Shown here in pieces: positions 6,182 through 28,687 of a stretch of DNA of 29,314 nt; position 1 is the first letter of the stretch; every line of letters begins with the position of its first letter. The notes under the pieces are model-generated. The model was not told where the DNA came from and did not search any database. It saw nothing but the letters and a program-made list of their open reading frames with translations. Made by a program: the position numbers and the translations under genes. The stretch is taken from the IMG/VR virus record IMGVR_UViG_3300049791_000036, positions 1-29,314 of that record; one strand, given 5' to 3'. Origin of the DNA: a virus.

Positions 6182-7843
6182 GTGGCGCTTACGACCCCGG
6201 TCGCCCTCACCGCTATTGCGTCCGGGGCCGCGGCGACTCTCGTCTCGGCGTCGTACACGCCGACCGCCAACGGCATCCAGTTCGTCTACATCGCAGCGAC
6301 CGGGTCAGTCAACGGGCAAACCCTCTCCTCCGTCTCGTCGACCCACGCGGGCACGGGCGCGTGGACGATCGTCAAGTTCACGCCATCTGCACTGTCGAAG
6401 TGTTGCGCGGCCGTCGCATGGGCCATCACGGGTTCCTCGCCCGGCTCCGGGACATTCACCGCGACGTTCGCGTCCACCAGCGCGGACAACGAGCTGCTGG
6501 TCTGTGAGACGACGGGCCAGGACGCTGTCACCCCGGTCAATGGGCAGGACTTTCAGGGCGACGCGGTAACCGCGACGACACCGGTCCTGACCCTGTCTGT
6601 CGCCCCCGCCGTCGGCGACATGACGGTCGTCTGTTTCGCCGGCCGGAATGTCGGCGCCAACCCCGGTGTCCCGTCCGCCACCGACACGTTCCTGTCGTTG
6701 GGTGCGAACAACCACGTCAACCCGTGCGCGTCGATCATCGGCGCCTACCGCATCACCTCCACATCGACCGGGATCACCCCGGCCGGCATGGGGACCGTCG
6801 CCAACGCTGGCGCCGCGATCGTCATCAAAGCCGCAGCAGCCGCCGCGGCCGGTGCCCCGTTCGTCCTGCCCCCGTTCCCCAGCACCCGGGCGCTACGGCC
6901 AGGGTTCGGCTTCCTCCCGACGCCGCTGCTCGGGTTCATGCCGTGGGCAGGCTTGCCGCTGCTCGCGCAGACCGCCGCGCAGGTCACGACCCCGGTCACC
7001 GCCACCCGCTCGACAACATGGAATGTGCTGGCGCCGGTCGCCGCCACGAGGGCCACGTCCTGGAACGTCGCCGCGCAGGTCCAGCAGACCAAGGCCACGA
7101 CGTGGAACGTCCTCGGTCAGGTCGCTGCGACTCGCGCCACAACCTGGAATGTTGCCGCGCAGGTCGCCCAGACGAAGGCAACTACCTGGAACGTGGCCGC
7201 GCAAGTGGCCGCCACAAGGGCCACAACGTGGAACGTAGCCGCCCAAGTCCTCGGAACACGCGCAACTACCTGGAACACCCTCGCGGCCGTCACAGCCGCC
7301 ACCAGGGCCACCACATGGAACACCCTCGCCCAAGTCCAGCAGACCAAAGCGACCCTCTGGAACGTCGCCAGCTCACTGACCCCAGTCCTCGCCACCAGGG
7401 CGACCACATGGAACGTCGCCGCACAGGTCCAAGGCACCCGAGCGACGACCTGGAATGTCAACGCAGCAGTGGCAGCGACCCGCTCCACAACGTGGAATGT
7501 GCGAGCCACCGCCACCGCATCGCGAGCCACGTCCTGGAACGTGGCCGCTCAGTTACAGGCTACTCGGTCGACGACCTGGGACACCCGCAGCCAGGTCGCG
7601 AGCCTGCGACCCACCACGTGGACCGTCCTCGCCACCATCCTCGCCACACGGACCACCCTATGGAACGTCGCCGCCGGCGGCGGACCACCGCCGTCCGGGT
7701 TCACCTACAAAGCCGGACACCTTATCAGCCTTTGGGAAGCCGGCCGACCTACCGATGAGCTACCCACCGCGCCCGCCTGGCGGGAGACCGCCACCCACAC
7801 GACCTGGAAGACAGGCCGCCCGACGTCGAGGAGTCCTGTCTGA
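6182..7843 (+). CDS. tail fibre-like protein with TWNV repeats
   Basis: The 553-residue product uses a GTG start after GAGGCGG. Residues 1-225 are a beta-sandwich-like domain (TLVSASYTPTANGIQFVYIA; WAITGSSPGSGTFTATFAS), perhaps carbohydrate-binding. A Pro-rich hydrophobic segment follows at 228-262. Sixteen tandem units of about 14 residues then run from 275 to about 498, consensus T[RK]ATTWNVAAQVxx, with a conserved Trp-Asn/Asp. A short C-terminal region has two related W-x-AGRPT/W-KTGRPT motifs. A rod or fibre shaft presenting a receptor-binding domain is the best reading. Host recognition is inferred. Confidence 0.75.
   Translation: MALTTPVALTAIASGAAATLVSASYTPTANGIQFVYIAATGSVNGQTLSSVSSTHAGTGAWTIVKFTPSALSKCCAAVAWAITGSSPGSGTFTATFASTSADNELLVCETTGQDAVTPVNGQDFQGDAVTATTPVLTLSVAPAVGDMTVVCFAGRNVGANPGVPSATDTFLSLGANNHVNPCASIIGAYRITSTSTGITPAGMGTVANAGAAIVIKAAAAAAAGAPFVLPPFPSTRALRPGFGFLPTPLLGFMPWAGLPLLAQTAAQVTTPVTATRSTTWNVLAPVAATRATSWNVAAQVQQTKATTWNVLGQVAATRATTWNVAAQVAQTKATTWNVAAQVAATRATTWNVAAQVLGTRATTWNTLAAVTAATRATTWNTLAQVQQTKATLWNVASSLTPVLATRATTWNVAAQVQGTRATTWNVNAAVAATRSTTWNVRATATASRATSWNVAAQLQATRSTTWDTRSQVASLRPTTWTVLATILATRTTLWNVAAGGGPPPSGFTYKAGHLISLWEAGRPTDELPTAPAWRETATHTTWKTGRPTSRSPV
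7004..7675 (+). repeat. 16 in-frame ~42-bp repeats coding TWNV units
   Basis: Each unit codes roughly TRATTWNVAAQVxx. Thirteen complete units are 14 codons, one is 15, one is 17, and the last is partial. DNA copies diverge mainly at third positions and at unit residues 9-14, so the array is old enough to vary but still expandable by slippage or recombination. Confidence 0.85.
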
Positions 7844-8160
7844 TGCGCCACGACTCCGTCACCCCCATCTACATTCCCGTGACCGGCCCCTCCGGCTGGC
7901 AGTCAACGGCGACCGGTGTGGCCGTGTCGATCAACGACGGCGCCGCGTGGTTGACGGCGGGGATCACGATCGTCACGGCGACCGCTACCGCGATCACCCT
8001 GGCGAACGGGACTGCCGGGACCCGCTGCTACATCAGCATCCCGGCCGCGACGGTCGGCATCAGCGCACTCGCTGGCCAACTGCTTGAGTTCCTCGTCAAG
8101 CTGACCAACGGCGCGGATGTGCCGGTCATGTCGGCGGCAGGGAAGTTCTGGATCGAATAG
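7843..8160 (+). CDS. small beta-rich hypothetical protein, probably virion-associated
   Basis: The 105-residue product (MRHDSVTPIYIPVTGPSGW...) has alternating strands (VAVSINDGAAW, TIVTATATAITLANG, CYISIPAATVGI) and ends KFWIE. It is the last gene of the operon before the terminator at 8187. It starts at an ATG overlapping the fibre stop (TGATG), which suggests a fibre partner such as a chaperone or tip protein. No family is recognised. Confidence 0.6.
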   Translation: MRHDSVTPIYIPVTGPSGWQSTATGVAVSINDGAAWLTAGITIVTATATAITLANGTAGTRCYISIPAATVGISALAGQLLEFLVKLTNGADVPVMSAAGKFWIE

Positions 8161-8186
8161 CCCTACCTGCTCGGCCCCCTTTTGCT

Positions 8187-8234
8187 GGCCCCGCTCTGTT
8201 TCCCCTAACCCGGGCAGAGCGGGGCCGCTTTTCT
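8187..8234 (+). terminator. strong intrinsic terminator of the lysis/tail operon
   Basis: A perfect 12-bp stem, GGCCCCGCTCTG (8187-8198) and CAGAGCGGGGCC (8215-8226), with a 16-nt loop is followed by GCTTTTCT. It separates the rightward operon from the convergent leftward immunity operon, whose last stop is at 8233. The opposite strand has no T-tract, so termination is expected mainly for plus-strand transcripts. Confidence 0.85.
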
Positions 8235-8406
8235 ATGTCCGCTCCACGTCACCTAACGGGCAGCACGCCGCCCCGTCATATGAATCGTCGGCCATGCACT
8301 CGCCCGCATGGGCGGCCGGGGCCGGTGCAGTCCGTGGCTGGTCCCGGACCTCGAACCTCAGCGGGACCGCTTCGTCTTCGAGCTCTTCGACGTCGAGGCG
8401 CCCCAT
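8233..8406 (-). CDS. small acidic hypothetical protein, 57 aa
   Basis: ATG at 8406 overlaps the stop of the upstream small gene (TGATG). The product (MGRLDVEELEDEAVPLRFEV...) has an acidic N-half and ends in a cysteine-bearing segment (GECMADDSYDGAACCPLGD). It is the last gene of the leftward operon. No family is recognised. Position suggests a lysogeny-expressed gene. Confidence 0.5.
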   Translation of the reverse strand: MGRLDVEELEDEAVPLRFEVRDQPRTAPAPAAHAGECMADDSYDGAACCPLGDVERT

Positions 8407-8507
8407 CAGAACGTGCCCCGATCCGCGGCCGTCCGCCGCGGCTTCGCCAACCTGGCCGCGACCACCAACCCAGCCACCACGAGCCCAGCCGCGATCAGAA
8501 TCTTCAC
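8406..8507 (-). CDS. 33-residue membrane protein downstream of integrase
   Basis: A GTG start (MKILIAAGLVVAGLVVAARLAKPRR...) lies 9 bp after the integrase stop and is coupled to the next gene by TGATG. Residues 2-19 form one hydrophobic helix followed by a basic tail. Such tiny membrane proteins expressed with int/rep can serve superinfection exclusion, but that is only a possibility here. Confidence 0.5.
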   Translation of the reverse strand: MKILIAAGLVVAGLVVAARLAKPRRTAADRGTF

Positions 8508-8516
8508 CGCACGACT

Positions 8517-9401
8517 CTAACCCCGCAACACGGGAAGCCGCCCGATCGCCTCGACCCGCCGGTCCTCCCCCACCGCAACGTAGATCGCGGTCGTAGCTAG
8601 CGATGCGTGCCGGAGCAACGTCTGCGCGGTCCTCAGATCGGCGCCGTTGCGGACCAGCTGCGTCCCATACCAATGCCGCAGCCCGTGCGCTGTACCGGGG
8701 ACGCCGGCGCGGGTCATCGCTATCGACACGATCCGGGAGACCGACGCCGCCAACACTGGACCGACCGTCCGGTGATCCGCATTCCCGACATACGTGGTGA
8801 ACCAGTACCCCTTCCCGGGATAGCCAGCGGCCTCCCGCGCGATCCGCGGATGCAGGGGCAGCCACTCATCCACGCCGCCCTTGCCGACTACGTAGAGGCG
8901 GGCGCCGAGCTGGTCGACGTCCTCGCCCCGAATCTTCGCTATCTCATGGACCCGCAAGCCTTGGAAGGCGGCGAGCAGGATCATGGTCCGCGTCCGCCGG
9001 TGCATCCGCGAGGCCAGGAGGCGCTCGATATGTGCTGTCTCGACCGGCCGGGGTCGGCGGCGGGGGATCTTGGGCCTAGGCACTTCGGTCATCGGGTTGT
9101 CGCCGCGGTGGCCATGCTCGACTAGCCATCTGCACCATGCGGAGAGGGCTACGTGGTAGTTGGCGCGGGTCGACTGGGAGATCCCGGACCGGGCGAGGTA
9201 GGTGAGGATCTGCCGGGAGGTTAAGACGTGTGGTGATACGTCGGATGCTTTGGCGACCCGGTTGACCATCATCGGCCGGTCGCGGATGGTGCGTCTGGCC
9301 ATCCCCTGCGCCTGCATCCAGAGCACCCAGTCATCTGTGAGGCTGGGTGGTCCGGGTGCTGGGTTGGGGATGCTCCGAAGCTGTCCCGCCACGCCGACCA
9401 C
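8517..9401 (-). CDS. int: tyrosine-family integrase
   Basis: The 294-residue product has the tyrosine recombinase catalytic set: R150 (FQGLRVHEI), K174 (VVGKGG), H239-x2-R242 (HGLRHWYGTQL), H265 (LLRHASLATT) and Y274 (AIYV). Residues ~20-100 form the SAM-like core-binding domain (WVLWMQAQGMARRTIRD; RANYHVALSAWCRWLV). There is little N-terminal sequence for an arm-binding domain. It uses a GTG start. The attP lies about 150 bp upstream, inside the repressor gene, and both genes are transcribed leftward. It should join attP to a host tRNA gene and, with the HTH protein at 10011, excise. Confidence 0.93.
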   Translation of the reverse strand: MVGVAGQLRSIPNPAPGPPSLTDDWVLWMQAQGMARRTIRDRPMMVNRVAKASDVSPHVLTSRQILTYLARSGISQSTRANYHVALSAWCRWLVEHGHRGDNPMTEVPRPKIPRRRPRPVETAHIERLLASRMHRRTRTMILLAAFQGLRVHEIAKIRGEDVDQLGARLYVVGKGGVDEWLPLHPRIAREAAGYPGKGYWFTTYVGNADHRTVGPVLAASVSRIVSIAMTRAGVPGTAHGLRHWYGTQLVRNGADLRTAQTLLRHASLATTAIYVAVGEDRRVEAIGRLPVLRG

Positions 9402-9434
9402 CTCGCCGTAAGTAACGAGCCAGTCGCAGAATAG

Positions 9435-9860
9435 TTACGCAGCGGGCTCGCAGATAGGGCCGAATGGCTTGGGGGCAAAGGGATTCCAGCGCCGGGAGGC
9501 ACGCGCGTTGCGCCTGCGCTCGGCGTGGCCCATGAGGTCAGAAGGCGGTGCGTCTGACGTGTAATCGGACGGCCGTTGGTTCGAGTCCAACCGCGGGAGC
9601 TTCTCACCACCATCTGGACCACCGCGTGTGGTCCCTTCGGATAGCCAGGCCATGGCCACTCCGGTCCTCATCGCCCAAGCGAGCAACACGGGGCGTGACG
9701 GGCTGGAGTGGCCTTTCTCGTAGTTGGTGACTGAGCGGCGGCTGATCCCAACCTGGTCGGCGAAGTCGGCCTGGTCGAGGCCGGCGTGTTCGCGGGCCTT
9801 GCGGAGTCTGTCCGCCAGCGTCCATTGCGGGACGTTCCCTGGTAGCGGTGCCTGTGTCAT
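9435..9860 (-). CDS. immunity repressor, virion (full-length) form, with attP inside
   Basis: The 141-residue product has a Cro/C1-type helix-turn-helix at about 15-72 (TLADRLRKAREHAGL; DFADQVGISRRSVTNYEKG). Residues 87-103 (KLPRLDSNQRPSDYTSD) are the antisense translation of a tRNA-like sequence, so the probable attP core is in the coding sequence. After it comes a basic tail ending PFGPICEPAA. A terminal Ala-Ala resembles the ssrA/ClpXP degron. Integration would swap everything beyond about residue 100 for host-encoded sequence. This is the architecture of the BPs-type integration-dependent repressor. ATG 9860 overlaps the uORF TGA by 4 bp. The stability claim is inference. Confidence 0.85.
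   Translation of the reverse strand: MTQAPLPGNVPQWTLADRLRKAREHAGLDQADFADQVGISRRSVTNYEKGHSSPSRPVLLAWAMRTGVAMAWLSEGTTRGGPDGGEKLPRLDSNQRPSDYTSDAPPSDLMGHAERRRNARASRRWNPFAPKPFGPICEPAA
9527..9601 (+). other. attP: attP: degenerate tRNA-like sequence inside the repressor gene
   Basis: The 3' half reads as a tRNA: anticodon stem TCTGA/TCGGA (9553-9557, 9565-9569), loop CGTGTAA, variable region CGGCC, perfect T-arm GTTGG-TTCGAGT-CCAAC (9575-9591), then CGCGGGAG. The 5' half is decayed but recognisable (GGTCAG...GGTGC at 9536-9551), with mispaired D and acceptor stems. The whole fits a 73-nt tRNA. The anticodon position reads TGT (Thr). The loop lacks T33, and the acceptor ending GGGA-G would suit tRNA-Asn if host identity begins only at 9562. 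It is therefore an attachment site, not a working tRNA. Confidence 0.8.
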
Positions 9861-9916
9861 ATCTGAGCCTTCTGGGCGGGCCGGGGTTTCTGTGGGGGCG
9901 GGTGCCCCGGCGTCAT
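9857..9916 (-). CDS. 19-codon uORF of the repressor transcript
   Basis: MTPGHPPPQKPRPAQKAQI starts 6 bp after the -10-like AACGAT and so could be translated from a leaderless mRNA. Its TGA overlaps the repressor ATG by 4 bp (ATGA). The PPP run can stall ribosomes unless EF-P acts, offering a way to tune repressor translation. Sequence layout is direct; expression is inferred. Confidence 0.45.
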   Translation of the reverse strand: MTPGHPPPQKPRPAQKAQI

Positions 9917-9952
9917 GTGAGCATCGTTGCGCACCCGAGCAAGGTTAGTCAA
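9917..9952 (-). promoter_or_regulatory. candidate repressor promoter
   Basis: On the minus strand TTGACT (9947-9952) is followed by 18 bp, AACGAT (9923-9928, weak -10) and 6 bp to the uORF ATG at 9916. The operator at 9918-9933 covers the -10, which suggests autoregulation or Cro-type repression. Confidence 0.5.
9918..9933. promoter_or_regulatory. operator candidate TGAGCATCGTTGCGCA
   Basis: It differs at two of 16 positions from the perfect palindrome at 250-265 and overlaps the repressor -10. Its right half TTGCGCA is intact; the left half is altered to TGAGCAT. Confidence 0.5.
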
Positions 9953-9961
9953 CCCCTGGGC

Positions 9962-9977
9962 TGAACAACGTTGCTTG
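9962..9977. promoter_or_regulatory. operator candidate over the excisionase -35
   Basis: TGAACAACGTTGCTTG keeps the CAACGTTG(C) core of the 250-265 palindrome with altered outer bases. It overlaps the first bases of the excisionase -35 (TTGACA at 9975-9980). Confidence 0.4.
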
Positions 9978-10010
9978 ACAGAGGTGCGCATCTGCGCATA
10001 CCTTCTACCT
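9975..10010 (+). promoter_or_regulatory. early rightward promoter, leaderless
   Basis: A consensus -35 TTGACA (9975-9980), an 18-bp spacer and -10 TACCTT (9999-10004) lie 6 bp before the ATG at 10011. No Shine-Dalgarno precedes that ATG, so transcription should start at or next to it. The spacer holds TGCGCATCTGCGCA. Confidence 0.7.
9985..9998. promoter_or_regulatory. operator candidate TGCGCA-TC-TGCGCA
   Basis: Two TGCGCA half-sites with a 2-bp spacer lie between the -35 and -10 of the early promoter. The arrangement recurs at 24521-24534 as TGCGCA-TA-CGCGCA. Binding there would block early transcription. Confidence 0.5.
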
Positions 10011-10211
10011 ATGGCAGACCTGCTCACCACGGCACAGACCGCCGAAAAGTTCAACCGGTCTGTACCCACCATCAACCGCTGGGCCGCCGAAGGGCGGCTC
10101 CCCGTCGCACTCAAGCTCGACGGCCCTCGCGGCGCCAACCTGTTCGACCCCAAGGTCGTCCAGGCCCTTCTCGACGCGGAAACCGCCGCAGCCCAACAGA
10201 TTTCAGCCTGA
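10011..10211 (+). CDS. small HTH protein: excisionase or Cro-like
   Basis: This 66-residue protein has a MerR/excisionase-type helix-turn-helix (TTAQTAEKFNRSVPTINRWAAEGRLPVALKL) and a short strand-helix ending (FDPKVVQALLDAETAAAQQ). ATG 10011 is chosen because the upstream in-frame extension would include the operator/promoter. It is divergent from the repressor and first in the early operon, where an excisionase or Cro belongs. One protein may do both jobs; sequence alone does not tell. Confidence 0.8.
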   Translation: MADLLTTAQTAEKFNRSVPTINRWAAEGRLPVALKLDGPRGANLFDPKVVQALLDAETAAAQQISA

Positions 10212-10220
10212 ACGACGACC

Positions 10221-10265
10221 GGTCCCCAACACCACCCCTGGAACGGGTCAGCGGTGATGGGGACC
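10221..10265 (+). other. inverted repeat between excisionase and LamG genes
   Basis: GGTCCCCA-AC-ACC (10221-10233) pairs with GGT-GA-TGGGGACC (10253-10265): an 8-bp plus a 3-bp stem around a small internal loop, with a 19-nt apical loop. There is no T-tract afterwards. It may be an RNA element that attenuates or processes the early transcript. Confidence 0.4.
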
Positions 10266-10283
10266 AGACAGGACAAGTCTCGC

Positions 10284-11081
10284 ATGCGCACTACACGTCT
10301 CGCTATCACCGGCCTCGTCTTGGCCGGGCTCGCCCTGCTCGGGGGGGCGAGCCCAGCACCAGCTAGCACCTCCACCTCTGCGACGGCCAGCCCGTCCGCG
10401 ACGTGCCCCGAGCTCACCGGCAACTTCGACCGCATCTACTGGGGACTCAACGAGGCCGCCGGGTCCACGTTCGTCGACGACTCCCACGGCGACCCCGCCA
10501 ACCGGCTCTCGATCACCGACAACGGCAACGCAGTAACCAACCAAGTCACCATCGGCGGCGGCACCGCCCGCGGCAACGACCACGGCCTCCTCACTTCTCC
10601 CGCCGCGGTCATGAACCCGGGCACCCACGACTTCTTCATCTGCGCCTCCCTCAACACCGTCACCGCCGGCGACGGGTTCAACTGGCTGCAGGAGGGCACG
10701 TCTAACGGCGGCACCGACGCCTGCGCCGGCGGGACGTCGAACGGGCAGATCAAGTTCGGCCCCAACACCTACGTGAAAGTCCAGGGCACGTTGGGTTGCG
10801 CGAAGCCGCTGACCGGGGTCAGCCCCAACAGTTTCAACGGCTCCGCCTATCACACGTTCGGCGTTGTCCGGCACGGCGACTACATCGCCGTCTACGTCGA
10901 CCACACCTCCCGCGGGACCGTGCATACGGTCGGCGGGATCGGCGCCGTGAACCTCTCCGGCAGTGCTGACCGGCTCTCCGTCCTCGGCAAGTACATCGAG
11001 TCCGGCACCTACCCGGCCGACTACACGGTCGACATGTGTCAGTGCGCCGTCCGGGAGCTTGAGATGGGCGTAGCGCCATGA
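10284..11081 (+). CDS. secreted LamG/concanavalin-A-like protein
   Basis: The 265-residue product starts with a signal peptide (MRTTRLAITGLVLAGLALLGGASPAPA) and a Ser/Thr/Ala linker. The rest resembles a LamG-like jelly roll: DRIYWGLNEAAGSTFVDDSHGD near 49-70, then alternating strands (THDFFICASLNT; YHTFGVVRHGDYIAVYVDHTSRG) and paired cysteines. ATG 10284 is used because an AGGACA precedes it and the signal peptide begins there. As second gene of the early operon, an exported sugar-binding-like protein may alter the host surface. That function is inferred. Confidence 0.75.
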   Translation: MRTTRLAITGLVLAGLALLGGASPAPASTSTSATASPSATCPELTGNFDRIYWGLNEAAGSTFVDDSHGDPANRLSITDNGNAVTNQVTIGGGTARGNDHGLLTSPAAVMNPGTHDFFICASLNTVTAGDGFNWLQEGTSNGGTDACAGGTSNGQIKFGPNTYVKVQGTLGCAKPLTGVSPNSFNGSAYHTFGVVRHGDYIAVYVDHTSRGTVHTVGGIGAVNLSGSADRLSVLGKYIESGTYPADYTVDMCQCAVRELEMGVAP

Positions 11082-11608
11082 CCGCCGTCTGGCTGGAGAT
11101 CGACGGTTCGCCCGTTAAGGCCGAGGACTGCTGCTGGCTGACCTACGCTCCGTGTGGCTGCGTTAGCGGCGTCTGCCTGGTCGATGTCGGTGACGAGGTG
11201 CTTGTTACCGAGGAGCAGGCGCTGGCCTACACCCACGAGAACAAACAACTTCGCGAGGAGTCCATCCGCCAGGGAGACCGACTCGAACTGGCAGCCCGCT
11301 CAACGTTCGCGGCGATAGAGAATTTCGGCAGATGCCCGCACATCCCGCAGTGGGGCGTCGAGCCAACGCCGATCCCGGAAGGCATGGTCTGGGCCAGCCC
11401 TGACGGAAGTGGACGCCGCACCAACATCAAGCACCTGATCGACTCGGACAAGGTCAACGACTACTCGTCACAGTCAAAGCCGTTGTGTGGCAAGGCAACT
11501 CGCGGCGTCTACCGCGACGAGCGCTGGTCGACAAGTTCCTGCGCCGAGTGTGTGAAGTGCCGTGAAACGGCAATGGCACTGAGCCCAGCACTAGCGGTGA
11601 CCTCATGA
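11078..11608 (+). CDS. cysteine-rich hypothetical protein, 176 aa
   Basis: It overlaps the LamG gene by ATGA. The N-terminal part has clustered cysteines (EDCCWLTYAPCGCVSGVC), followed by a helical stretch (EEQALAYTHENKQLREESIRQ). A C-terminal CGK...SSCAECVKCRE cluster and an earlier GRCPHI give enough cysteines for one or two zinc sites. No family is recognised. It is a cytoplasmic early protein. Confidence 0.65.
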   Translation: MTAVWLEIDGSPVKAEDCCWLTYAPCGCVSGVCLVDVGDEVLVTEEQALAYTHENKQLREESIRQGDRLELAARSTFAAIENFGRCPHIPQWGVEPTPIPEGMVWASPDGSGRRTNIKHLIDSDKVNDYSSQSKPLCGKATRGVYRDERWSTSSCAECVKCRETAMALSPALAVTS

Positions 11609-11802
11609 CCGCCGCGCGGCCTCTAGCCGGCCGGTGGACGTTAGCCATCCTCATCCCCCTGACCGTCGCCGCATGCGTCGCAGTCGGGCTGGTCGCGGTG
11701 CCGCAGTACGAGAAGGCCCACGGCTCCGACTACCGGCAGACCACGCCCGCGCCGGCCGGGGACGCCGGCAGCGGCAAGCAGTACCCGGAGGCCACCCCGT
11801 GA
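11605..11802 (+). CDS. small membrane protein, 65 aa
   Basis: One hydrophobic helix at about 12-32 (TLAILIPLTVAACVAVGLVAVP) follows a basic N-terminus, then a Pro/Gly/Ala tail. The cysteine near residue 24 is not in a lipobox. ATGA and GTGA overlaps on both sides. The function is unknown; it could be an inner-membrane exclusion peptide. Confidence 0.6.
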   Translation: MTAARPLAGRWTLAILIPLTVAACVAVGLVAVPQYEKAHGSDYRQTTPAPAGDAGSGKQYPEATP

Positions 11803-12062
11803 CCACCACCGACACCCAAGTCACCTGCCCAGTCCGCCTACTCAGCCGCGGCGACCACATCACCATCAACGACCGCACCGTCGAAGTCACCGGGAACCAC
11901 CCGCAACGCCGACTCGGCGACGAGCGCCGCGAGTTCGCCCGCACCTACGAACTGTGCTGGATGGACGTCGAAACCTGGCACAACGACGGCGCCACGTTCC
12001 CAGCTGACCTTGAGTTCCCGTTCATCCGTTCTGCCGCAGAGATTCTGGAGACCACACCATGA
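11799..12062 (+). CDS. hypothetical protein, 87 aa
   Basis: The GTG start overlaps the preceding TGA (GTGA) and the stop overlaps the next ATG. The product begins TTTDTQVTCPVRLLSRGDHI and looks like a small beta-barrel (TINDRTVEVTGNHP) followed by a segment with TYELCWMDVETW and FPADLEFPF. No family is recognised. Confidence 0.6.
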   Translation: MTTTDTQVTCPVRLLSRGDHITINDRTVEVTGNHPQRRLGDERREFARTYELCWMDVETWHNDGATFPADLEFPFIRSAAEILETTP

Positions 12063-24503: not shown

Positions 24504-24655
24504 CTTTCGCGAGTCGCATGTGCGCATACGCGCATGTCTGCTATGTTCCCTCTGTAGCGCCCGATTCTGCATGCTTGTCGTGCCCTGAACTCGCTGGCCA
24601 CGCACTCCGTGAGCACGAACCCCGCACAGATCGGGACCACACGCTGGTGAGGTGA
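24500..24655 (+). CDS. possible 51-aa cysteine/histidine protein
   Basis: GTG start in a GTGA overlap. The product contains MCAYAHVC, ACLSCPEL and GHALREHEPRTDRDH, which would fit a small zinc site. It also contains the operator/promoter candidate at 24519-24547, so either the gene is real and the promoter is embedded, or the frame is accidental. Confidence 0.4.
   Translation: MTFASRMCAYAHVCYVPSVAPDSACLSCPELAGHALREHEPRTDRDHTLVR
24519..24547 (+). promoter_or_regulatory. candidate promoter/operator ahead of the packaging genes
   Basis: TGCGCATACGCGCA (24521-24534) matches the operator type at 9985-9998. A -10-like TATGTT follows at 24542-24547, giving a start about 110 nt before the terminase ATG. 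The -35 (TGTGCG) is weak and is covered by the operator. Confidence 0.4.
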
Positions 24656-26565: not shown

Positions 26566-26584
26566 CGAGAGGCGGGTGGATCTG

Positions 26585-28687
26585 ATGGCTGGAACATCTC
26601 TCGGTTACGTCGATGATGGGGCCACCGGTTTCACTCTCCTCGACAGCCTCCTCGAGTACGTCCCCGACCTCACCTGGCCCGACAGTGTCCGCACGTATGC
26701 GCGGATGCGGTGGGATCCGACGCTGCAGTCTGTTCTCAAGGCGTACACGCTGCCGATCCGCCGCGCGTCCTGGAGTGTTGACCCGGCTGGGTGCCGGCCG
26801 CTGGTGGTTGAGACGGTTGCTGACCAGCTGGGGTTGTCGATCCTCGGGCAGGATGCGAAGCCGTCGCCGGCGCGGCGGCGTGGTGTGGTCTGGGGCGATC
26901 ATCTGCGGTTGTCCCTCCTTGACTTGACGTTCGGTCACATGGTGTTCGAGCGGACCTACGGCGACATCAACGCCGCCGGGATCCAGCCGCTCAACGTGTT
27001 CCAGGAGCGGATGCCGCAGACGATCCGCGACATCCGCATCAACACTGACGGGTCGTTGGCTGAGGTGCGGCAGAACCCGATGATCCTCAACAGTGCCGCC
27101 CCGTCGATCGGTGTGGCGCCGATCCCGGCGCAGAACCTTGTCTGGTACGCCCACGACAAGGAGGGCACCGCCTGGATGGGCCAGAGCCTGTTGCGGCCGG
27201 CGTATGGGGCGTGGCTTATCAAGCATGAGATGAGCCGGGTTCTAGCCACCAGCAACCGGCGGTTCGGGATGGGTGTCCCGTCCGTGGAGGCGCCTCCCGG
27301 GTCGACGGCCACGCAGGTCGCCGCAGCTCAGGCGATGGCGTCGGCTGCCCGGGTCGGTGACCAGTCGGGTGTGGGGATGCCGTCCGGGTTCAAGTTCGCG
27401 CTGACCGGCCTGTCCGGGTCGGCGCCGGACACGTTGGCATTCCTGCGGTACCTCGACTCGCAGATGTCCCGGTCGACGCTTACCGGGCTGCTTGACCTCG
27501 GTGACTCGAGCAACGGGTCGCGGGCGCTCGGTGACTCGTTCCTCGACGTCTTCATCCTCGCGTTGCAGTCGATCGCCGACGAACACGCAGCGACCGGCAC
27601 GAGTCAGATCGTGGTCCCGTTCGTGGACGTGAACTGGGGTGAGGATGAGCCGGCCCCGCGGATCGTCTGCGGTGACGTCGGGTCCGAGCATGCGGTGACC
27701 GCGGCTGCCCTGGCTGAGTTGGTGAAGTCGGGGGCGTTGCAGCCTGACCCGGCCTTGGATTCGTTCATCCGTGGCGAGTGGAAGCTGCCGCCGCGGGAGG
27801 TCTCCGCGCCGTGGCAGGAGCCAGCCGCACCGGTTGACCCGAATGTGGCTAAGCCTGCGAAGCCTGCCGCGTCCGCGCGTCCGGTGGGGGAGGTTCGTGC
27901 TGCGGCCGGCCAGTTTCGCCGCCAACCGACCGCGGTAGAGGCGGCGGCTAAGACTGACTTCGCGGCCGTCCAACAGGACTGGCTGTCGGCGTTGGATGGG
28001 CTCGTCGCGGACTGGGCGAAGATCACCAAGGCGCAACGCAAGAGCATCCTCGACCAGATCAGCCAGGCCGCGCATGACGACAACCTTGATGCGTTGGCCT
28101 CGTTGGCGGTCGATAGCAAGCCGGCCGCCGCGTTGCTTGAGGAGCGGATGGTTGGGCTCGCTGATGAGGCTGCGCAGATGCAGGCGGATGAGGCTGACCG
28201 GCAGGGTGTGAGCGTGCCGGTCGGCGTCCCCGACCAGGATCGTCTGGCGGCTTCGGCTGCCGTGGTGGCTGCGGTGTTGGCGTCGTCGCTGGTTGACGGG
28301 TCAACTAAGAAGGCGTTGCAGGCGTGGACGCCGGGCGCCACTAGCGCGGATGTTGTGCAGGCGGTTGGCGGGTGGATGGACACGCTGACTGACGCGTCGC
28401 TGCGTGACCAGCTGGGCGGCGGGTTGTCGTTGGCGCAGGGTGCTGGTCGTGGTGCGACTCTGATGGCGGCTGCGGATGCTGGGATGGGTGCGTCGTACTA
28501 CGCGAGCGAGATCCTCGACGGGTCGACGTGTGGCCCGTGTCAGGCCGAGGACGGTCACCAGTTCGACTCGCTTGACGAGGCTGACGCGGCGTATGCGTCC
28601 GGTGGGTTCGTTGAGTGTGAGGGTGGGTTGCGGTGTCGGGGGATCATCGTGACTGTTTGGGATGACGCGAAGGCGCAGGCCGCCTGA
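26585..28687 (+). CDS. portal protein fused to a MuF-like domain
   Basis: The product is 700 residues from ATG 26585 (GGTGGA upstream); GTG 26576 would add three. Residues ~10-400 are portal-like (DLTWPDSVRTYARMRWDPTLQSVL; LPIRRASWSVDP; DSQMSRSTLTGLLDLGDSSNGSRAL), forming the connector through which DNA passes. A Pro/Ala linker near 415-440 leads to a helical region and a C-terminal MuF-type end (STCGPCQAEDGHQF...CEGGLRCRGIIVTVW). In many phages these are two proteins. The fusion is intact, with no frameshift seen. Confidence 0.88.
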   Translation: MAGTSLGYVDDGATGFTLLDSLLEYVPDLTWPDSVRTYARMRWDPTLQSVLKAYTLPIRRASWSVDPAGCRPLVVETVADQLGLSILGQDAKPSPARRRGVVWGDHLRLSLLDLTFGHMVFERTYGDINAAGIQPLNVFQERMPQTIRDIRINTDGSLAEVRQNPMILNSAAPSIGVAPIPAQNLVWYAHDKEGTAWMGQSLLRPAYGAWLIKHEMSRVLATSNRRFGMGVPSVEAPPGSTATQVAAAQAMASAARVGDQSGVGMPSGFKFALTGLSGSAPDTLAFLRYLDSQMSRSTLTGLLDLGDSSNGSRALGDSFLDVFILALQSIADEHAATGTSQIVVPFVDVNWGEDEPAPRIVCGDVGSEHAVTAAALAELVKSGALQPDPALDSFIRGEWKLPPREVSAPWQEPAAPVDPNVAKPAKPAASARPVGEVRAAAGQFRRQPTAVEAAAKTDFAAVQQDWLSALDGLVADWAKITKAQRKSILDQISQAAHDDNLDALASLAVDSKPAAALLEERMVGLADEAAQMQADEADRQGVSVPVGVPDQDRLAASAAVVAAVLASSLVDGSTKKALQAWTPGATSADVVQAVGGWMDTLTDASLRDQLGGGLSLAQGAGRGATLMAAADAGMGASYYASEILDGSTCGPCQAEDGHQFDSLDEADAAYASGGFVECEGGLRCRGIIVTVWDDAKAQAA

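Follow-up and report, generated by a model that had tools for sequence, protein, structure and literature searches.

The viral DNA analyzed here (IMG/VR virus record G000; the whole stretch of 29,314 nt is referred to as the window) carries a repressor gene that is read through tRNA-like sequence and lies next to an integrase gene, which raises the question of whether integration into a host tRNA gene would itself convert the repressor from one form to another. The gene, rep (9435–9860, minus strand, ATG start, stop codon 9435–9437), encodes a Cro/C1-type HTH repressor of 141 aa in its virion form, with matches to the HTH_3 domain (E = 2.3e-13) and to phrog_2328 “transcriptional repressor” (E = 1.2e-28). 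Its C-terminus, ...PFGPICEPAA, confirms the CEPAA ending reported in a first-pass annotation of this DNA. Judging from this sequence and from the Ala-ending tails found family-wide, the codons for the terminal Pro-Ala-Ala (9438–9446, minus strand) may give the virion form an ssrA-like degron. An AlphaFold model of the repressor, built with 17 sequences, is confident for residues 11–75 only (the HTH core), and the pLDDT of ~50–74 in the tail suggests that the tail is disordered. As the annotation had also described, the integrase gene int (8517–9401, minus strand) lies just downstream of rep on the same strand, and an HTH gene (10011–10211, plus strand) is divergent. A megablast search of positions 7000–12000 returned no DNA-level match among phages. 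The record (1–29314) seems incomplete, with the portal gene (26576–28687) near its right end and the lysis genes near its left; no capsid gene was recognized among the window proteins scanned.

The claim that rep runs antisense through a tRNA-like sequence holds, specifically, for the 3' half of a tRNA. Positions 9562–9599 match tRNA-Asn(GTT) at 37 of 38 bases, and the attP common core (9562–9600, plus strand) corresponds to the tRNA from anticodon base 36 to the 3' end. The annotation had placed the translation of the tRNA at residues 87–103; the overlap is real, but the range is narrower, since the antisense core encodes residues 88–99 and two bases of codon 100. ARAGORN found no complete tRNA in the window, and Rfam gave only a sub-threshold tRNA-Sec match on this stretch, as expected because it is half a tRNA. 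The exact 38-mer (9562–9599) is absent from 84,980 species genomes, and neither it nor a 40-mer, which started 1–2 bases left of the true core, had a match in the genome and viral contigs. Using a relaxed core pattern, we found 36 matching stretches, all in Actinomycetota, and those that retained the whole tRNA carried the anticodon loop of tRNA-Asn(GTT), with ARAGORN confirming six of them as tRNA-Asn. The best matches, at 37/38 over 9562–9599, come from three genera (Paraoerskovia sediminicola, Sediminihabitans luteus, and Cellulomonas sp. PhB143), and their sole difference from the core is C versus T at 9573, in the variable loop; Promicromonospora and Isoptericola match the core at 36/38. 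Since the 37/38 match is to real tRNA-Asn(GTT) genes, chance is excluded.

The same matches bear on the likely host. In a sample of 222 genomes of Cellulomonadaceae sensu GTDB (the family having been assigned by reading its members), a pattern search recovered the one-mismatch core only in the three species named above, and relatives of the window large terminase, at 47–58% identity, occur in 11 of these 222 genomes. Because both the core matches and the terminase relatives are found there, the host likely lies in or near this family. In the genomes searched (84,980 species genomes and 222 family genomes), no core with 38/38 identity and no lysogen of the window phage was found, and attB is predicted at the tRNA level, as tRNA-Asn(GTT).

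Two smaller observations concern the surroundings of the core. Positions 9535–9561 (plus strand) resemble, in degenerate form and in register with the core, the D-arm and 5' anticodon stem of tRNA-Asn (17/27 identity; only 3 of ~58,600 window positions score as high). This flank gives the impression that a longer part of the tRNA was once present in attP, and no such resemblance was apparent, by eye, in the attP flanks of relatives. In addition, extra tRNA-Asn 3' halves without a 5' half, in Promicromonospora kroppenstedtii (L066/L067), Promicromonospora sp. MEB111 (L086), and an Arcanobacterium MAG (L089), are att remnants of other elements that used the same tRNA-Asn.

The edge of the core determines what integration would do to rep. 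Identity between attP and tRNA-Asn starts at 9562, and the phage has G at the flanking base 9561, where the tRNA-Asn genes examined have T. On the rep strand, this host base changes codon 100 (9561–9563, minus strand) from TAC (Tyr) to TAA. We joined the 5' half of six real tRNA-Asn genes to the phage 3' half in silico; in 6/6 hosts, the resulting attL restored a tRNA-Asn(gtt) recognized by ARAGORN and encoded a 99-aa repressor ending GGEKLPRLDSNQRPSD. The predicted prophage rep is therefore 99 aa long, ending ...LPRLDSNQRPSD, with the host tRNA restored. The annotation had expected host codons to replace the C-terminus beyond about residue 100; the tag would indeed be removed, but by an immediate stop instead of a stretch of host codons. 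With tRNA-Asn, the antisense of the anticodon loop itself provides the stop codon, and this same TAA is the stop in homologous repressors of related actinobacterial chromosomal prophages.

We propose, with a probability of roughly 0.87, that the locus works as a BPs-type switch of integration-dependent immunity, in which attP lies within rep and integration at tRNA-Asn(GTT) yields a tagless repressor. This reading starts from the gene anatomy, the identity of attB at the tRNA level, the stop-codon logic seen in silico, and the presence of the two forms in many integrated relatives. In the virion genome, rep would be read through attP into the Pro-Ala-Ala-ending tail, and the 141-aa protein would most likely be a substrate of a ClpXP-type protease, so that lytic growth would be the default. 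Int would recombine attP (within 9562–9600) with the 3' half of the host tRNA-Asn(GTT) gene, and the first host base beside the core would then turn codon 100 from TAC into TAA, so that the prophage would make the 99-aa tagless repressor and dormancy would be locked in. The tag-coding remnant would stay with int at the other end of the prophage.

Integrated relatives show the truncated form directly. Scanning viral contigs with the rep alignment gave 48 loci, and in two IMG/VR proviruses (L008 and L009) rep runs antisense into a complete tRNA-Asn and stops at the same TAA (...LPRLDLNQRPSD and ...LPRLDSNQQPFD). Relatives of the window rep are present in 8/222 genomes of the family (E ≤ 1e-12) and in 17/396 genomes of the order (E ≤ 1e-10), and in most of these 17 the end of rep falls within a complete tRNA-Asn, tRNA-Arg, or tRNA-Lys. 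In chromosomal elements of genomes G074, G202, G304, G184, G463, G565, G509, G558, and G462, rep likewise stops at this antisense TAA in a complete tRNA-Asn, and further rep relatives use other tRNAs (Arg and Lys). Weak matches in G001–G003 and G012 were rejected as rep genes, being largely the antisense of tRNA-Asn itself.

To recover the corresponding virion forms, we excised 11 chromosomal elements in silico, finding the second att site next to int (attR was located by mismatch-tolerant matching) and joining both ends to rebuild rep. Excision gave a longer rep in 11/11 elements, all ending in Ala and 7 in Ala-Ala: ...KAA in G304 and G184, ...EAA in G220, ...MAA in G463, ...RAA in G565 and G509, ...VAA in G558, ...SIA in G202, ...VSA in G462 and G463b, and ...CVA in G412 (for G463b and G412, the crossover was placed before an A/G mismatch). 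In the tRNA-Asn elements and in G220 (tRNA-Lys), where the host has GATTAA, the phage has GATTA or GGTTA and then C or T; therefore, as in the window, a tyrosine codon stands in place of the stop. The attR of G202, G304, G184, and G463 has the T-stem ACTGG/CCAGT and the attL tRNA has a different one, which suggests that the phage 3' half takes the place of the host one in the tRNA, with the crossover located close to the anticodon end of the core. Together with the predicted attB, these excisions support the proposal of the annotation that attP lies in rep and that recombination at a tRNA removes the Ala-Ala tail. The many natural attL/attR pairs make the two-form model checkable directly from sequence and offer a panel for stability and immunity tests.

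Some of these elements are short. Those of G558 (L179:3562–19603), G509 (L175:3598–19600), and G565 (L171, L172) are ~16 kb long and sit at tRNA-Asn; G509 and G565 have a Phage_portal domain, and G558 has a weak terminase match and an amidase. They are very small tailed phages with the same switch. In G074, a tagged rep (...TPVAA) with int (C1:589759–592100; L116, L118, L119, L121) lies ~42 kb from the untagged rep at tRNA-Asn, and four more short rep-like HTH genes follow in a row; this locus may be what is left of a tandem prophage, or else a repressor gene array.

The window Int is a tyrosine integrase with a catalytic domain (Pfam Phage_integrase, E = 4e-18), and the scan of viral contigs returned no relative of it. 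Pfam gave no match to an arm-binding domain in Int, and no arm-like direct-repeat array was found at attP, which has only isolated 9–10-nt pairs; the lack of both is expected for the BPs-type group. The C-terminal Int tag usually sets the frequency of lysogeny. The window Int ends in VLRG, without an Ala-Ala tag, so that this feature of BPs-type systems is missing here, and the untagged Int and the tRNA-Asn attB are the departures from the known members. The tag is frequent in the group and not universal: the Int of Charlie ends in SAVS, also without Ala-Ala, and some reconstructed elements likewise lack it. Therefore, we do not treat the tag as defining.

The untagged Int, the lack of a lysogen of the window phage and of a 38/38 core among our search results, and Ala counts that come from related sequences weigh against the switch. 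The alternative that fares best would be that attP overlaps the rep 3' end for compactness only, both forms of the repressor being equally stable and immunity being independent of integration. Integration sites commonly overlap gene ends, the Int tag expected in a full system is absent, and both the degradation of the long form and the immunity activity of the short form are predictions from sequence. However, virion-type reps end in Ala in 24/25 cases (Ala-Ala in 17/25), compared with 0/23 prophage-form reps ending in Ala and 0/65 other phage proteins, taken as background, ending in Ala-Ala, although p-values of ~1e-12 overstate independence here, the sequences being related and the prophage ends being dictated by the tRNA sequence. 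Moreover, the Ala tails recur across unrelated tail sequences and virus types, and the virion form of the BPs repressor is degraded through such a tag (PMC4557955). We thus regard compactness alone as an unlikely explanation.

The stop-codon logic would fail if attB were another tRNA, such as tRNA-Thr(TGT), which has one mismatch to the attP anticodon loop and would create no stop at codon 100. By eye, the attP loop CGTGTAA is indeed nearer to CTTGTAA (Thr) than to CTGTTAA (Asn). Yet the acceptor stem and G73 agree with tRNA-Asn, the pattern matches that keep the whole tRNA have the tRNA-Asn anticodon loop, the nearest rep relatives are located at tRNA-Asn, and the attP sites of relatives also diverge from the tRNA on exactly this side of the core. 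We rejected tRNA-Thr as attB, its chances being slim in view of the acceptor stem, G73, and the sites of the relatives.

The predicted integration at tRNA-Asn with loss of the tag has counterparts in known systems. Integration-dependent immunity has been described in mycobacteriophages of clusters G, I, N, and P (PMC4557955, PMC9262239), in Gordonia phages (PMC5559632), and in Bifidobacterium prophages (PMC6109161), and in M. abscessus prophages, where bacterial sequence contributes a stop codon that shortens rep at attL (PMC9934374). Among the precedents named by the annotation (BPs, Brujita, and Giles), BPs and Brujita (I1) stand, and Giles was rejected, as it is not among the phages named in this literature. 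As compared by published descriptions only, BPs (EU568876; cluster G, gp33-136/gp33-103) shares with the window attP in rep, a tRNA attB, a tagged long form, a stop codon made by the host base beside the core, and the rep–int order with a divergent Cro-like gene. It differs in using tRNA-Arg instead of tRNA-Asn and in converting a Cys codon to a stop instead of a Tyr codon to TAA; the window also has the untagged Int and a different host group.

Other members are linked to the window by homology. Over the HTH part, the window rep is 42% identical to that of Purky (cluster P, E = 3e-22, ending DAA), 31% to that of Charlie (N, 2e-7, ending SAA), and 28% to that of Brujita (ending HAA), and the Int proteins of all three are homologous to the window Int at 45–46% identity. 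The cluster P attB is tRNA-Thr (PMC9635641). These phages differ from the window in other genes, and the window terminase is nearest, among named phages, to those of Streptomyces phages (50% identity). Among named phages, the reps closest to that of the window come from Arthrobacter phage Gusanita and Gordonia Wizardvirus (Jambalaya), at 45–46% identity over the first 100 aa; they end in ETAA and EPAAA, respectively. Both phages have a tRNA-like antisense segment in rep, int downstream, and a divergent HTH gene, with an Int only ~30% identical to that of the window. In G. terrae, the tRNA used by Wizard and Twister6 is tRNA-Arg (PMC5559632). In Bifidobacterium prophages Bb423phi2 and 689b-1, the virion rep rebuilt in silico gains an ssrA-like tail (PMC6109161); they differ from the window in using tRNA-Met, in their host, and in having small genomes. 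An independent, convergent origin in a new host group, raised by the annotation and seemingly favored by a host group and tRNA that differ from the classical mycobacteriophage cases, is very improbable given the rep and Int homology to Purky, Charlie, and Brujita just described, the continuum of relatives in Gordonia, Arthrobacter, and Actinomycetales prophages, and the wide distribution of the arrangement in actinobacterial prophages. The switch type is already described, and the sequence similarities indicate that the window version is homologous to the known cases; it adds phages of Cellulomonadaceae-like hosts, and tRNA-Asn as the target, to the range of this compact, self-contained lysogeny switch.

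The switch also appears outside tailed phages. Of the relatives found, the one nearest to the window rep (62% identity) belongs to the integrated element of G463 (L169:4082–19900, 15.8 kb), which is tectivirus-like, has rep at tRNA-Asn, and gave no matches to the terminase or portal of the window. Its capsid gene matches Pfam P3 just under the cutoff (E = 2.9e-5), a five-sequence capsid profile matches the PRD1 P3 major capsid chains in the PDB (1w8x, 1cjd; E = 2e-4), and tblastn finds the Lysinibacillus tectivirus phiG2 (1e-16). Further copies occur in G462 (L199/L200), as a second copy in G463 (G463b, L201/L202), in G412 (L203/L204), and in G580 (L205). These elements are ~16 kb where both ends were found and have a P3-like (PRD1/Bam35) capsid, packaging-ATPase-like genes, and a tyrosine integrase. 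The G463, G463b, G462, and G412 copies each have a rep cut short at tRNA-Asn or tRNA-Lys, and in silico excision gives it back an Ala-ending tail. The switch is probably a portable cassette, common to tailed phages and tailless tectivirus-like viruses of Cellulomonadaceae sensu GTDB, all with tRNA-Asn or tRNA-Lys as their docking site. Actinobacteria are known to harbor Toil-like prophages (PMC5894146), and in the literature searched we found no paper tying Toil-like or tectivirus-like prophages to integration-dependent immunity. Since the described actinobacterial tectiviruses are without an integrase or known lysogeny genes (PMC11768872, PMC6950372), the tectivirus-like prophages with this switch suggest how integrating tailless viruses control lysogeny.

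Finally, the region between rep and the divergent gene (9861–10010) would be, by analogy with BPs, the control region of the switch. The divergent gene (HTH_17) is in the Cro/Xis position and matches phrog_66, excisionase and transcriptional regulator (E = 2.9e-6). A consensus promoter scan returned no promoter. Before this gene, the palindromic TGCGCAtcTGCGCA (9985–9998) sits between TTGACA (9975–9980) and TACCTT (9999–10004). In BPs, the operator lies between the –35 and –10 of PR (PMC4557955), and by this analogy TGCGCAtcTGCGCA is operator-like and a candidate rep operator. The operator pattern is rare by shuffling, with 3 strand matches at 2 sites versus 0.26 expected. Upstream of the packaging genes, at 24521–24534, there is a related TGCGCAtacGCGCA, and positions 250–265 hold a 16-bp palindrome, TGCGCAACGTTGCGCA. 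TGCGCA-based palindromes are thus dispersed before gene blocks at these three places, and it is possible that they are repressor operators, as in BPs.
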